From positions 8,114,501-8,178,500 of the forward strand of contig NZ_CP036298.1 in assembly GCF_007752135.1 (NCBI RefSeq): a stretch of DNA of 64,000 bases. The letters run 5' to 3'. The notes under the pieces were generated by a model, which worked only from the letters and a program-made list of their open reading frames with translations, had not been told where the DNA came from and did no database searches. The position numbers were made by a program, and so were the translations under genes. Numbering within the stretch: position 1 is the first letter of the stretch; the number at the start of each line of letters is the position of its first letter. This DNA is from Aureliella helgolandensis (lineage in GTDB: Bacteria > Planctomycetota > Planctomycetia > Pirellulales > Pirellulaceae). This document shows positions 24,801-29,812 of this stretch, piece by piece.

Positions 24801-25110
24801 GGATCGACTTTGTCAGTGGTTTCTAGAATTTCTGAGACTGCGGCTGACTGATTTTGGCGCGCCTTCAATCCTAACGCAAACCTAGCTTCGCGCCAGCCAC
24901 TTTCGCTCTGGTTACCAGCTGCGCTCTAGCAGCCCGCCGCATACCGGCGCCGCCCGCCGCTGGCTGACATTGTAAACCGCTGCATGGACAAGCAAGGGTG
25001 GTTGCCGTGACGTGGGAGTCAGGGGTACCGCCGTCCCGCTAAAACCAAACGCCCGTTCAAATCCGCGCGCCGGTAAGCCAGATTGGACTCGCTGCCGCTG
25101 CGGTGCAACG

Positions 25111-25180
25111 CACAATGCACAAGGCACAATGCACAACGCACAACGCACAAGGCACAACGCACAACGCACAACGCACAACG
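25111..25180. repeat. Heptamer array (CACAAYG/CACAAGG)10
   Basis: Ten consecutive 7-bp units of CACAACG, CACAATG or CACAAGG. The order is mixed and there are no spacers, so this is a simple tandem array and not CRISPR. Units outside this range degrade (TGCAACG before, CATGATG after). It ends 53 bases before element A copy 3. Confidence 0.92.
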
Positions 25181-25233
25181 CATGATGCGAGGCCTACGTG
25201 AAACGGCAGCCGTCTTAAGAGCAACAAGCCTTA

Positions 25234-25350
25234 ACGGGCTGTTGAAATAGTAACCCGCCGCGTGAGCAAGGAAAGACAACCTCCGCTACAAGTCAATTAA
25301 GGCTGCTACCTCCGCATTAAAATTCAAATTGCGATTAAATCAACAGCCCG
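25234..25350. mobile_element. 117-bp miniature element 'A', copy 3
   Basis: It starts ACGGGCTGTTGAAATAGTAA and ends AAATCAACAGCCCG, flanked by perfect TTA repeats (25231-25233 and 25351-25353). This is the cleanest copy in the window. It lies 74 bases past the early stop of the isomerase gene. Confidence 0.9.
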
Positions 25351-27023: not shown

Positions 27024-27051
27024 TTGACAGCCACGACCGCCTTGCTATTCT
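27024..27051 (+). promoter_or_regulatory. Sigma-70-type promoter of the cobalamin-riboswitch transcript
   Basis: A perfect -35 box TTGACA at 27024-27029 and a -10 box TATTCT at 27046-27051 are separated by 16 bases. The first riboswitch helix begins within 10 bases after the expected start site. This is the best promoter match found in the window. Confidence 0.8.
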
Positions 27052-27057
27052 CAGGGC

Positions 27058-27275
27058 AGCTTGTGGTGACGTGTGCTGGCAGTCTTTCAGCCACGTGAAC
27101 AGGGAACTCCGGTGAAACTCCGGGACGGACCGGCCGCTGTGAGCCGCTTGCATTTCGACAGAAATGCGACGAAACCCTCTTTCTAGAGATACCATTGCTT
27201 CCGTTAGATGGGAGCGAGAAGGTGTGTGGGATTCGTGAGTGGCAAGTCAGAAGACCTACCGCAAGTCGTTGCGTA
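27058..27275 (+). ncRNA. Cobalamin (B12) riboswitch
   Basis: The conserved core is easy to read: P3 arm ACGTG...CACGT followed by AACAGGGAACTCCGGTG, AAACTCCGGGACGGACCGGC and CGCTGTGAGCCG (27098-27145). The 3' B12 box AAGTCAGAAGACCTACCGC is at 27244-27262. These match the class elements GGGAA-CCGGTG-AAA-CCGG-CTG-CCCGC-ACTGTGA and the AGTCAGGAGACCTGCC box. It sits between the TTGACA/TATTCT promoter and a DUF1559 pseudopilin gene. The expression platform (27276-27369) contains GGGG/CCCC and GTCC/GGAC pairings but no plain U-tract terminator, so translational control is likelier. High B12 would normally switch off the downstream genes. Confidence 0.93.
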
Positions 27276-27369
27276 TTTGCCCTCCAGGTAATGGGGCTGA
27301 CGTGAATTTCGGTGCACCCCTGCCCCGATCTGTCCTTCCATTCCTAGCTGTACGGACCAGGCCATCCAC

Positions 27370-28152
27370 ATGTGCCGAAAATCCGCTTTTACGTTGGTCG
27401 AGCTGCTGGTGGTGATTGCCATTATTGGCATTCTCGTCGGATTGTTGCTACCGGCCGTGCAAGCAGCCCGCGAGGCCGCGCGTAAAGCTTCCTGCAAGAA
27501 CAACTTGCGGCAGATTGGCATCGCCCTCCACCAATACCACGACGCGCATCAATCCTTACCGACTGGCTGCATTGAGTGGCGTGCCTACCGAGCTCCCCCT
27601 ACCAGGCGGCAATTCGCCTGGTCTGCATTGCTACTCCCCTTCCTTGAGCAATCAAACCTCCATCAACAAATTGATTTCAACGTGCCTTACGACGCGCCAG
27701 CCAACGCGCCAGCCGCCGCCACTCGGCTTCAAGTATTCGAATGTCCAACAGCCCCCAACCGCCAGCTCTTGCGGGCTCAAACCGATTACGCGGGGCTGTA
27801 CGGCGAAATCATCAACGATCGCATCTCCGATGATGGCATCTTCCTCTACGACCAGCGAATCGCCTTTCGCGATATTCGCGACGGCCTATCGAATACCTTG
27901 GCGGTTTCAGAGGATGTGGGAGGCCCCGACAGTGAATGGATCAACGGACGCAATGTGTTCGTTCAGTCCGGCGGGATTAATGATCCTCAAGCCTGGATAG
28001 GCGACAACGAAATTCGCAGCCAACACACTGGCGGAGCCATGCTGTTGCACTGCGACAGCCACGTTGATTTTCTGAGCGAGTCGATCGACCGCCAGATTCT
28101 CGGGGCAATGATAACCCGGGCTACCGGCGACATCGTTCAATTACCCCAGTAG
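27370..28152 (+). CDS. DUF1559 pseudopilin-like protein under B12-riboswitch control
   Basis: A 260-residue protein with a type IV prepilin-like N-terminus (SAFTLVELLVVIAIIGILVG then LLLPAVQAAREAARKASCKN) and the DUF1559 region (NLRQIGIALHQYHDAHQSLPTG, RFAWSALLLPFLEQSNLHQ-type motif, GGAMLLHCDSHVDFLSE near the end). Planctomycetes have dozens of such proteins, thought to be cell-surface or secretion-system pseudopilins. It is the first gene after the cobalamin riboswitch and is followed after 59 bases by a PEP-CTERM protein, so both should answer to B12. A role in cobalamin scavenging is inferred from this context only. Confidence 0.88.
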   Translation: MCRKSAFTLVELLVVIAIIGILVGLLLPAVQAAREAARKASCKNNLRQIGIALHQYHDAHQSLPTGCIEWRAYRAPPTRRQFAWSALLLPFLEQSNLHQQIDFNVPYDAPANAPAAATRLQVFECPTAPNRQLLRAQTDYAGLYGEIINDRISDDGIFLYDQRIAFRDIRDGLSNTLAVSEDVGGPDSEWINGRNVFVQSGGINDPQAWIGDNEIRSQHTGGAMLLHCDSHVDFLSESIDRQILGAMITRATGDIVQLPQ

Positions 28153-28211
28153 TTTTGCAGACTCTTACTAATCCTCTCCCTGAAGTCTTACACCCCAGAG
28201 TTTTCCAGAAA

Positions 28212-29069
28212 ATGCAATATCCAACGACCCTCACAGCAATCCTGCTCATCGCTTTCTCACAAGCCGTTTCCGCAGCCGTAGTGGACTTCGAAGAACTCAC
28301 GGTCTATTCGGGAACTAGCGGAATTGAAAACGGTCAGCCCGGTGGCCAATTCTACAATGGAGATTCGGGGAACGGCAACAATTCCAATGGCTGGTCTAGC
28401 GGAGGTCTTTACTTTAGCAACAGTTTTGACAGAAGCGAATTTAACGGCATCACCTACGAATCGTGGACCGGCTGGGCATACTCGAACGTCCAAAACAACC
28501 TAACACCCGGTTTCACCAATCAATATGCCTCGTTTCCTGGTAGCGGAGCAGGTGGCAGTTCGAACTATGCTATCGCCTTCGCCTTCCCAGGCGACATCAC
28601 CTATATGAATATCGACGCTGGCATGGAGATCGCTGGGCTCGATATCAGCAACACGACCTACTCGTACCTCGCATTACGGGATGGAGTCTACGGCAGCAAA
28701 CCGTTCGGTGGCAATACAGGCAACGATCCCGACCTCTTCACGGTAACGCTCTCCGGTTACGACGCAGCGGGAGCTACAGGCAATCAGATTGGCTCTGTCG
28801 ATTTCAATTTGGCAGACTTCCGCGCTGCAAACAACAGCCTTGACTACATCGTTGACGCCTGGACCACGCTCGACTTGTCGGCGCTGGCTAGCGCTCGTTC
28901 CATAGCATTGAGCTTCACCTCAACGGACGCAGGGCAGTTTGGGATTAACACGCCTACCTATGTGGCCATCGACAACATTCGCCTGACGGCTGTCCCCGAG
29001 CCGAACTCGCTAGCGTTACTCAGCCTCGCCAGCTGGGCAATGTGCGCACGCCGCCGTCGATCACACTAA
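28212..29069 (+). CDS. DUF4465-like PEP-CTERM surface protein, B12-regulated unit
   Basis: About 285 residues from ATG 28212. A signal peptide (TTLTAILLIAFSQAVSAAVV) is followed by a beta-rich domain with the pattern of DUF4465: GGLYFSNSFDRSEFNGITY, WTGWAYSNVQNNLTPGFTNQ, GSGAGGSSNYAIAF, FTVTLSGYDAAGA, DFNLADFRAANN, and SFTSTDAGQFGINTPTYVAI. It ends in VPEPNSLALLSLASWAMCARRRR, a PEP-CTERM sorting tail. From memory, DUF4465-type proteins of Bacteroides (BtuH) are surface B12-binding proteins encoded in B12-riboswitch loci. If the family call holds, this would be a planctomycete cobalamin-capture protein. It follows the DUF1559 gene in the same direction. Confidence 0.82.
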   Translation: MQYPTTLTAILLIAFSQAVSAAVVDFEELTVYSGTSGIENGQPGGQFYNGDSGNGNNSNGWSSGGLYFSNSFDRSEFNGITYESWTGWAYSNVQNNLTPGFTNQYASFPGSGAGGSSNYAIAFAFPGDITYMNIDAGMEIAGLDISNTTYSYLALRDGVYGSKPFGGNTGNDPDLFTVTLSGYDAAGATGNQIGSVDFNLADFRAANNSLDYIVDAWTTLDLSALASARSIALSFTSTDAGQFGINTPTYVAIDNIRLTAVPEPNSLALLSLASWAMCARRRRSH

Positions 29070-29196: not shown

Positions 29197-29216
29197 ACTG
29201 CTACCGAAGTCTCCCC

Positions 29217-29543
29217 AGGGACAGACCACCGGGATGGTAGCCTCACCGCGAAGCCAGCATTTCAGCTCTAGCCAAAGCCCTCCATCTTTCCGCCTCCATC
29301 TTCCCGTCTCCGTGTTCACTACTCCACCAGAGAAAGCGTGCTCGCATGGCGCGTTCGAATGGGGACACACCCCGAACCTCCGTGCAGGGACAGACCACTG
29401 GGATGGTAGCCTCACTGGGAAGCTAGCATTTCAGTCCTAGCCATAGCTCTTCATCTTCCTGTCTTTATTTTTCCGTCTCCATCTTCCCGTCCCCCTGTTC
29501 ACCACTCCACCAGAGCAGACTCGCTCCAATGGGGACACAGCCC
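29217..29543. repeat. Two tandem copies of a ~157-bp intergenic repeat (period 169)
   Basis: Copy 1 is 29217-29373 and copy 2 is 29386-29543. Both open with AGGGACAGACCAC(C/T)GGGATG, carry GTAGCCTCAC and AGCATTTCAG, share TCTCCATCTTCCCGTC- and CACTCCACCAGAG-type text, and close with AATGGGGACACA. Divergence is visible but modest. Function is unknown. Confidence 0.75.
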
Positions 29544-29812
29544 GCGAGAGTCCTCTCAGTGAGAGTCGCGGCACTCGGGGAATGGGGAATGCTGGTGATG
29601 CCAATCCCCAGCTATCGCGAATACGCAAACACGCTCTGTCCCCGGTAGGGTGCTCTGTCCCTGGCGCGCTGTCCCTGGCGCGGCCAAGTTCGGGCAGTTT
29701 GTGATCGCCCCTGGCTGGATTGTTGAAAAACGCGATAATTTCTCGCAAGACTAGTGCTGACGAGACACTAGCGACTTTATGGACACCAGACCGAACCAAC
29801 TGAGAACCGATC

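Follow-up and report, generated by a model that had tools for sequence, protein, structure and literature searches.

A cobalamin riboswitch in the planctomycete Aureliella helgolandensis is followed by genes for a DUF1559 pseudopilin and for a DUF4465 protein that carries a PEP-CTERM tail. Both genes lie in the window analysed here, a stretch of 64,000 nucleotides (NZ_CP036298.1, 8,114,501 to 8,178,500) from a genome that is a single contig of 8.44 Mb, and the positions given below are those of the window. We read the arrangement as a B12-repressed acquisition module in which a dedicated pseudopilin would take the place of BtuB, an exosortase would sort the binder, and a DUF6580 protein would perhaps provide the inner step; we put the probability of this reading at about one half. 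The capture proteins belong to known kinds but are anchored differently. The new element is the pseudopilin, which is present even where no binder is adjacent (the pilins called type 2 below), and which rarely accompanies a riboswitch-controlled TonB receptor.

The riboswitch and the two proteins behind it

The first-pass annotation of this DNA had described a promoter, a complete cobalamin riboswitch, a DUF1559 pseudopilin and a DUF4465-like protein with a PEP-CTERM tail, and each of these was confirmed. The sigma-70-like promoter site (27024–27051, plus strand; TTGACA-16-TATTCT, with a TG before the second hexamer) matches at 10 of 12 positions. Taken alone it is weak evidence, since the region has three sites of this score and its shuffled versions have 1.1 on average. 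A site with at least 9 of 12 matches is present near 86 of the 158 surveyed riboswitches that have enough upstream DNA, while 100 mononucleotide shuffles gave a mean of 5.3 and a maximum of 10. The aptamer (27047–27277, plus strand) matches RF00174 over its full length (model positions 1–189) with 82.1 bits (E 1.1e-18) against a curated cut-off of 31.5; it is the sole Rfam match above the gathering score in the window and one of two cobalamin riboswitches in the genome. The leader from the aptamer to the pilin start (27278–27369, plus strand) is presumed to be the expression platform, and B12 would turn the riboswitch OFF, that is, repress the module.

The pseudopilin (27370–28152, plus strand; 260 residues) matches PF07596 at E 1.5e-52, and PF07963, TIGR02532 and TIGR04294 (H-X9-DG) are all above their cut-offs. 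Its start is prepilin-like, with MCRKSA before the presumed cleavage site and FTLVE after it, so that Glu stands at +5 (F7-T-L-V-E11) as in a prepilin-type N-terminus, and H-x9-DS is found near its end. The AlphaFold model (mean pLDDT 92.9) has a long N-terminal helix at residues 9–60 and a globular C-terminal part. The same genome has 75 matches to DUF1559.

The DUF4465 gene (28212–29069, plus strand; 285 residues) starts 59 bases after the pilin on the same strand. Its product, a member of the BtuJ family, matches PF14717 with 156 bits (E 1.7e-45; cut-off 25 bits), the domain spanning residues 81–256 (28452–28979, plus strand), and an N-terminal signal peptide was called by eye. The PEP-CTERM sorting signal at residues 260–282 (28989–29057, plus strand) scores 23.9 bits with PF07589, above the cut-off of 20.7, and five exosortase matches are present in the genome, two of them near 200 bits. 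The first-pass annotation had described DUF4465-type proteins of Bacteroides, under the name BtuH, as binding B12 at the cell surface; the binding stands (PMC12751083, PMC13398666), but the name does not, since in Bacteroides thetaiotaomicron the DUF4465 family is represented by BtuJ1 and BtuJ2, and BtuH is a separate family (PMC13398666, PMC8941943). BtuJ1 binds B12 with a Kd of 0.16 nM (PMC12751083), and a 2026 paper reports that eight diverse DUF4465 proteins bind B12, one of them from the planctomycete Mucisphaera calidilacus (PMC13398666).

By sequence, the window protein matches the solved PDB structures 9qpm (1.3e-18), 9hmu, 9fct and 9i2l. In the DE-loop, N147-T-T-Y150 (28650–28661, plus strand) places Y150 on the B12-bonding Tyr146 of BtuJ1 (PMC12751083), and in the HI-loop, the motif N246-T-P-T-Y250 (28947–28961, plus strand; motif from PMC13398666) aligns with Asn241, Thr242 and Tyr245 of BtuJ1. 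The B12-bonding residues common to BtuJ1 and BtuJ2 are present in this alignment as Y150, N246, T247 and Y250, and Tyr97 of BtuJ1, a further conserved contact, corresponds to Phe101. The window protein is likely to bind B12, presumably at the cell surface. Its nearest named DUF4465 records come from mixed phyla, the best being a Planctomycetota metagenome-assembled genome with 44% identity. Elsewhere in the order, two open reading frames of 1082 and 1805 residues behind a riboswitch and a pilin (L073 in G117 and L078 in G113) contain two and three DUF4465 matches and are possibly multivalent B12 binders.

The second riboswitch of the genome (G000:C1:2066656-2066900) precedes a protein of 283 residues. 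The profile of its family, built from 29 of 33 BtuH-like matches, finds BtuG1 chain 8blw_B at residues 377–497 (E 2.4e-8) as the sole PDB match at E 1, and the matched stretch extends into the BtuH domain, about 250 residues long, at the C-terminus of BtuG1 (PMC10404256). That search at E 1 thus did not find the BtuH2 structure 7BIZ. Foldseek also places 8blw_B first (E 4.7e-4), with a weak TM of 0.37. Together these matches suggest that the protein is distantly related to BtuH. Its PEP-CTERM score of 19.4 bits is just under the cut-off of 20.7, and 18 of the 29 aligned family members match at E 0.01.

Recurrence across the order and the riboswitch-linked pilin clades

Our survey covered 146 genomes of the window's order, with RF00174 present in 135 and DUF4465 in 52. 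We classified 159 riboswitch sites in 126 genomes, the two of the window genome included, from about 180 matches (about 20 weak ones are outside the set), using 6.5 kb of DNA per site, or less at contig ends, and seven gene profiles built from the surveyed loci themselves; the genome lists and coordinates behind the co-occurrence counts were transferred by hand. A DUF1559 pilin is encoded on the same strand at 116 of the 159 sites, and at 105 no more than 350 bases separate the aptamer from the start of its frame. DUF4465 follows the riboswitch on the same strand, 350–2091 bases downstream, in 48 of the 52 genomes that have it; in three of the four others (G118, G090, G102) the gene is no more than about 1.3 kb from the end of its contig, and in the fourth (G136) it is farther away. 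The arrangement that the first-pass annotation had suggested looking for in other planctomycetes thus recurs, and the two other computational checks that it named, for RF00174 and for DUF4465, also came out in favour of its interpretation. Controls of 2.5 kb upstream of 70 sites contained, on the same strand, a single pilin and a single DUF4465, with neither on the opposite strand. The site patterns are a pilin alone at 50 of the 159, pilin-DUF4465 at 32, MetE or ribonucleotide reductase at 15, pilin-BtuH-like at 14, a TonB receptor at 12 (with a distant pilin at one of these), no match at 10, pilin-DUF4465-BtuH-like at 8, and smaller classes. Within the phylum more widely, among the 30 top-scoring riboswitch loci sampled, a pilin is next in three (all from the window's class) and a TonB receptor in 11; 15 of these loci had no match and the orientation of several was guessed.

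The pilins linked to riboswitches are separate clades within the DUF1559 family. For the tree we took 105 of the 116 pilin sites, those with a pilin of 180 residues or more that starts less than 700 bases downstream of the riboswitch (a different set from the 105 counted above by the 350-base limit), together with background proteins from the 60 best-scoring, non-random DUF1559 loci of five genomes, 56 of which gave a usable open reading frame. In FastTree, 85 riboswitch pilins, the window's included, form one clade (type 1) with support 0.955 and one outsider, the background pilin L279, and the tree needs 5 label changes compared with at least 39 in 500 shuffles. With the addition of three pilins from a different order of the class, a second clade (type 2) of 21 members was found, all riboswitch-linked, with support 0.914. 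The two clades together hold one of the 56 other DUF1559 proteins, and two riboswitch pilins (L219 and L274) are outside both. IQ-TREE on a subsample of 107 sequences gave bootstrap support of 96 for type 1 (28/28) and 100 for type 2 (20/21). Residues of type 1 that are rare in other DUF1559 proteins include D139, G142, N192, N195, F197 and Q199. Chance, or the sheer abundance of paralogues, as a cause of the adjacency of pilins and riboswitches was ruled out by the position, strand and clade tests.

What follows the pilin bears on two other explanations. In one, the B12 binder would be exported by a type-II-like secretion system of which the pseudopilin is a substrate-specific component. Among NCBIfam models the window pilin does match GspG best, though at 39.3 bits against a cut-off of 88.85, and at many sites the pilin stands ahead of the binder on one strand. 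However, no DUF4465 or BtuH-like match was found near the 20 riboswitch pilins outside type 1 (three of these sites with less than 3.3 kb of DNA), so the pilin is retained where its supposed cargo is not adjacent, and some sites have a binder but no pilin in first position; we regard this explanation as very unlikely. A PEP-CTERM-like open reading frame, identified by pattern, is present within 3.5 kb after the pilin at 72 of the 79 riboswitch-pilin sites that are off the type-2 list (a set slightly wider than type 1 of the tree) and have at least 1.2 kb downstream. The same pattern is present in 6 of the 70 stretches upstream; the opposite strand has it at 9 of the 79 sites, and 1 of the 18 remaining pilin sites shows it. 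Adhesion is a frequent role of pilins. It could therefore be argued that B12 shortage induces adhesive or matrix fibres made of the pilin and PEP-CTERM proteins, which fix cells to algae or biofilms with B12 producers, especially as the PEP-CTERM system has been described as exopolysaccharide-associated (PMC1569441). Yet the frequent partners come from B12-binding families (DUF4465 and, distantly, BtuH), which adhesion would not need, and DUF6580 is encoded at 4 of the 21 sites with a type-2 pilin, in two cases together with a gene for a periplasmic binding protein, which makes this account rather improbable.

Further protein kinds are found behind riboswitch-linked pilins. Beta-propeller-looking proteins (by eye; L145, L151, L213, L229, L230, L254, L266), several with PEP-CTERM-like ends, resemble BtuG, and those of L145 and L151, which were scanned, had no Pfam propeller match above cut-off. 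Another recurring PEP-CTERM-like family carries a motif of about FDDIQFWVGxGxNRAA (L146, L220, L225, L233, L244, L272), and a shorter PEP-CTERM-like kind is present at L140, L142 and L144; such recurring families are possibly further B12 binders. In other genomes, genes f2, f3 and f8 after the binder had been considered as a BtuFCD transporter, but they are transporter-like only by size: f2 is a methyltransferase, f3 has weak shikimate-dehydrogenase matches below cut-off, and f8 is a dethiobiotin synthetase by eye. The methyltransferase and the shikimate-dehydrogenase-like gene, sometimes with a BioD-like one, recur downstream of the cassette (L077, L080, L086, L101 and others), with no evident link to B12.

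The proposed outer-membrane entry and inner step

Under the acquisition reading, low B12 would allow the riboswitch to permit one transcript, from which two exported proteins would be made. The BtuJ-like DUF4465 protein would bind B12 outside the cytoplasmic membrane, sorted by an exosortase via its PEP-CTERM tail, and the DUF1559 pseudopilin, as a B12-specific member of its family, would assemble into or decorate a pilus-like fibre. This fibre would hold B12, or the B12-loaded binder, and carry it across the outer membrane, a step that BtuB performs elsewhere. Passage of the outer membrane would thus fall to the pilin. B12 would then cross the cytoplasmic membrane, perhaps through DUF6580, and serve MetH, which is present in the window genome (1954 bits). 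CbiC was not found in 142 of the 146 genomes, the window's among them.

Across the 126 genomes, 102 have a pilin first behind a riboswitch and 11 have a riboswitch-linked TonB receptor, with both in one genome only (G031; Fisher P about 1e-7, uncorrected for relatedness). A Plug domain match at E 0.001 was not found in 66 of the 102 pilin genomes and was found in 36, the window's included. The suggestion in the first-pass annotation that a pseudopilin and a PEP-CTERM-anchored binder work instead of a TonB receptor is supported by comparison among genomes (one of the 102 with a riboswitch-linked receptor, 66 with no Plug), with a reservation for the 36. The window genome has two TonB receptors with Plug, neither adjoining a riboswitch, with 99 and 110 bits against the TIGR01779 cut-off of 599.7; a riboswitch-linked or BtuB-equivalent receptor was not found in it. 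These receptors, and the 36 genomes, allow a third explanation, in which the binder and pilin only capture B12, on the cell surface or within the matrix, the pilin being accessory, and an unlinked TonB receptor, a large porin or some other, unrecognised pore lets it through the outer membrane. BtuG and BtuH are capture proteins of this kind beside a separate receptor in Bacteroides (PMC10404256). The 66 genomes with no Plug match, the low scores and unlinked positions of the window's two receptors, and the near exclusion of riboswitch-linked receptors and pilins all argue against it, and we consider capture alone fairly unlikely.

For the inner step, we propose DUF6580 because no BtuC-type permease was found in the window genome; its sole FecCD match (33.5 bits) is an ABC-3 permease. 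DUF6580 is membrane-protein-like and is encoded in the window genome at L354:5224-5784. Among the 146 genomes, 30 have a strong FecCD match (more than 100 bits), 98 have DUF6580 and nine have both, and of the 58 pilin genomes that lack both a Plug and a strong FecCD match, 50 have DUF6580. It stands behind a riboswitch in G117 (L126), G118 (L127), G144 (L143) and G030 (L228). In another order of the class (L361-L363), the operon of two genomes consists of genes for a pilin, a small protein, a diphthamide-synthase-like protein, DUF6580 and a periplasmic binding protein, in this order, and in a third genome DUF6580 is behind the pilin; within Pirellulales it was found in the examined DNA of one type-2 site only. 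DUF6580 is thus a candidate B12 permease of the cytoplasmic membrane. We also observed that behind riboswitches it is sometimes beside BtuF-like and diphthamide-synthase-like genes, and that it is scarcer where strong FecCD is present.

Several observations, besides the 36 pilin genomes with Plug, weigh against the acquisition reading. No terminator-like site was found on the plus strand between 26850 and 29400, the leader included, and the fold of 27230–27400 is no better than that of shuffles (z -0.33), neither result revealing the expression platform. The window pilin has Ala6 rather than Gly before the presumed cleavage site, which bears on cleavage and not on the fold; in an alignment of 48 riboswitch pilins (the window's plus 47 of the 48 chosen among 52 eligible ones), this residue is Gly in 23 and Ala in 9, the pattern being unmatched in 16. 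Foldseek gave matches only to the pilin helix (best E 0.22), and none to a solved fold for the C-terminal part. The loop motifs of the binder are not universal, an NTTY-like motif being present in only 34, and xTPxY/F in 46, of 55 surveyed DUF4465 frames. The riboswitch leads MetE or ribonucleotide reductase genes at 15 of the 159 sites, and at 10 none of our seven profiles matched (two of these have almost no DNA). Neither strong FecCD nor DUF6580 is present in 27 of the 146 genomes, and DUF6580 is therefore not the whole answer. Finally, the Fisher P values and the absences overstate the case because the genomes are related and some are incomplete.

Other features were noted in passing. Downstream of the DUF4465 gene, 29200–29720 contains degenerate repeated segments (by eye) around 'gggacagaccaccgggatggtagcctcac', and at 24912–25279 low-complexity minus-strand open reading frames with CALCVVR-like repeat units suggest a short tandem repeat. 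On a DUF4465-bearing contig of another genome, L088:6568-6613 matches the Rfam Acido-Lenti-1 RNA with 46.4 bits.

Known systems and meaning for planctomycete uptake

The closest known counterparts are BtuJ1 and BtuJ2 of Bacteroides thetaiotaomicron (PMC12751083, PMC13398666), which share with the window binder the Pfam domain (IPR027828), the bonding residues and a riboswitch-controlled locus. Unlike them, the window protein has a PEP-CTERM tail rather than a lipoprotein anchor, a pseudopilin as its neighbour, and neither BtuB nor BtuCD recognised beside it. Neither pilins nor PEP-CTERM are mentioned in PMC13398666. In the BtuB-BtuG-BtuH loci of Bacteroides (PMC10404256, PMC8941943), cobalamin riboswitches likewise govern surface B12 binders, and the second riboswitch described above precedes a protein that appears distantly BtuH-like; the difference is that neither a riboswitch-linked TonB receptor nor a BtuC-type permease was found in the window genome, and that the commonest riboswitch-linked gene is a pilin. 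Among the titles and abstract openings of openly licensed PMC literature on cobalamin riboswitches or DUF1559 in planctomycetes, we did not find this arrangement described.

In planctomycetes, gold-labelled dextran has been found on pili-like fibres (PMC5394234), and the 'fishing rod' hypothesis that followed (PMC12078418) proposes that pilin-like proteins bind substrate and draw it into the periplasm, much as we suggest here. That idea concerns polysaccharides, comes from dextran work and, in the available text of these papers, names no pilin gene; here, a riboswitch connects particular DUF1559 pilins with B12. In Planctopirus limnophila, DUF1559 forms the largest group of paralogues, with 68 proteins of function not known, and the family is apparently restricted to Planctomycetes (PMC10632474); in work on R. 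baltica it has been called a solute-binding protein family (PMC2754498). The window pilin is a clear member of this DUF1559 / SBP_bac_10 family (PF07596), and the riboswitch-linked pilins differ from the rest in forming clades nearly free of other members, with residues rare among them. For the window's class as a whole, we offer only tentatively, and with the odds against it, the broader proposal that dedicated pseudopilins are the outer-membrane entry for B12 in place of BtuB, that the DUF1559 paralogues are a substrate-specific set for pilus-borne uptake, the first ligand of which the riboswitch would have revealed, and that DUF6580 is a B12 permease.

How large molecules pass the planctomycete outer membrane is an open question, and the riboswitch ties two DUF1559 clades to one ligand, B12. 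Because of this link, the 'fishing rod' idea can be tested by deletion of a single gene and measurement of uptake. If the acquisition reading is true, that hypothesis gains a candidate ligand and a genetic handle, and diderm bacteria would have a B12 entry route without BtuB, with DUF6580 indicated as a candidate permease.

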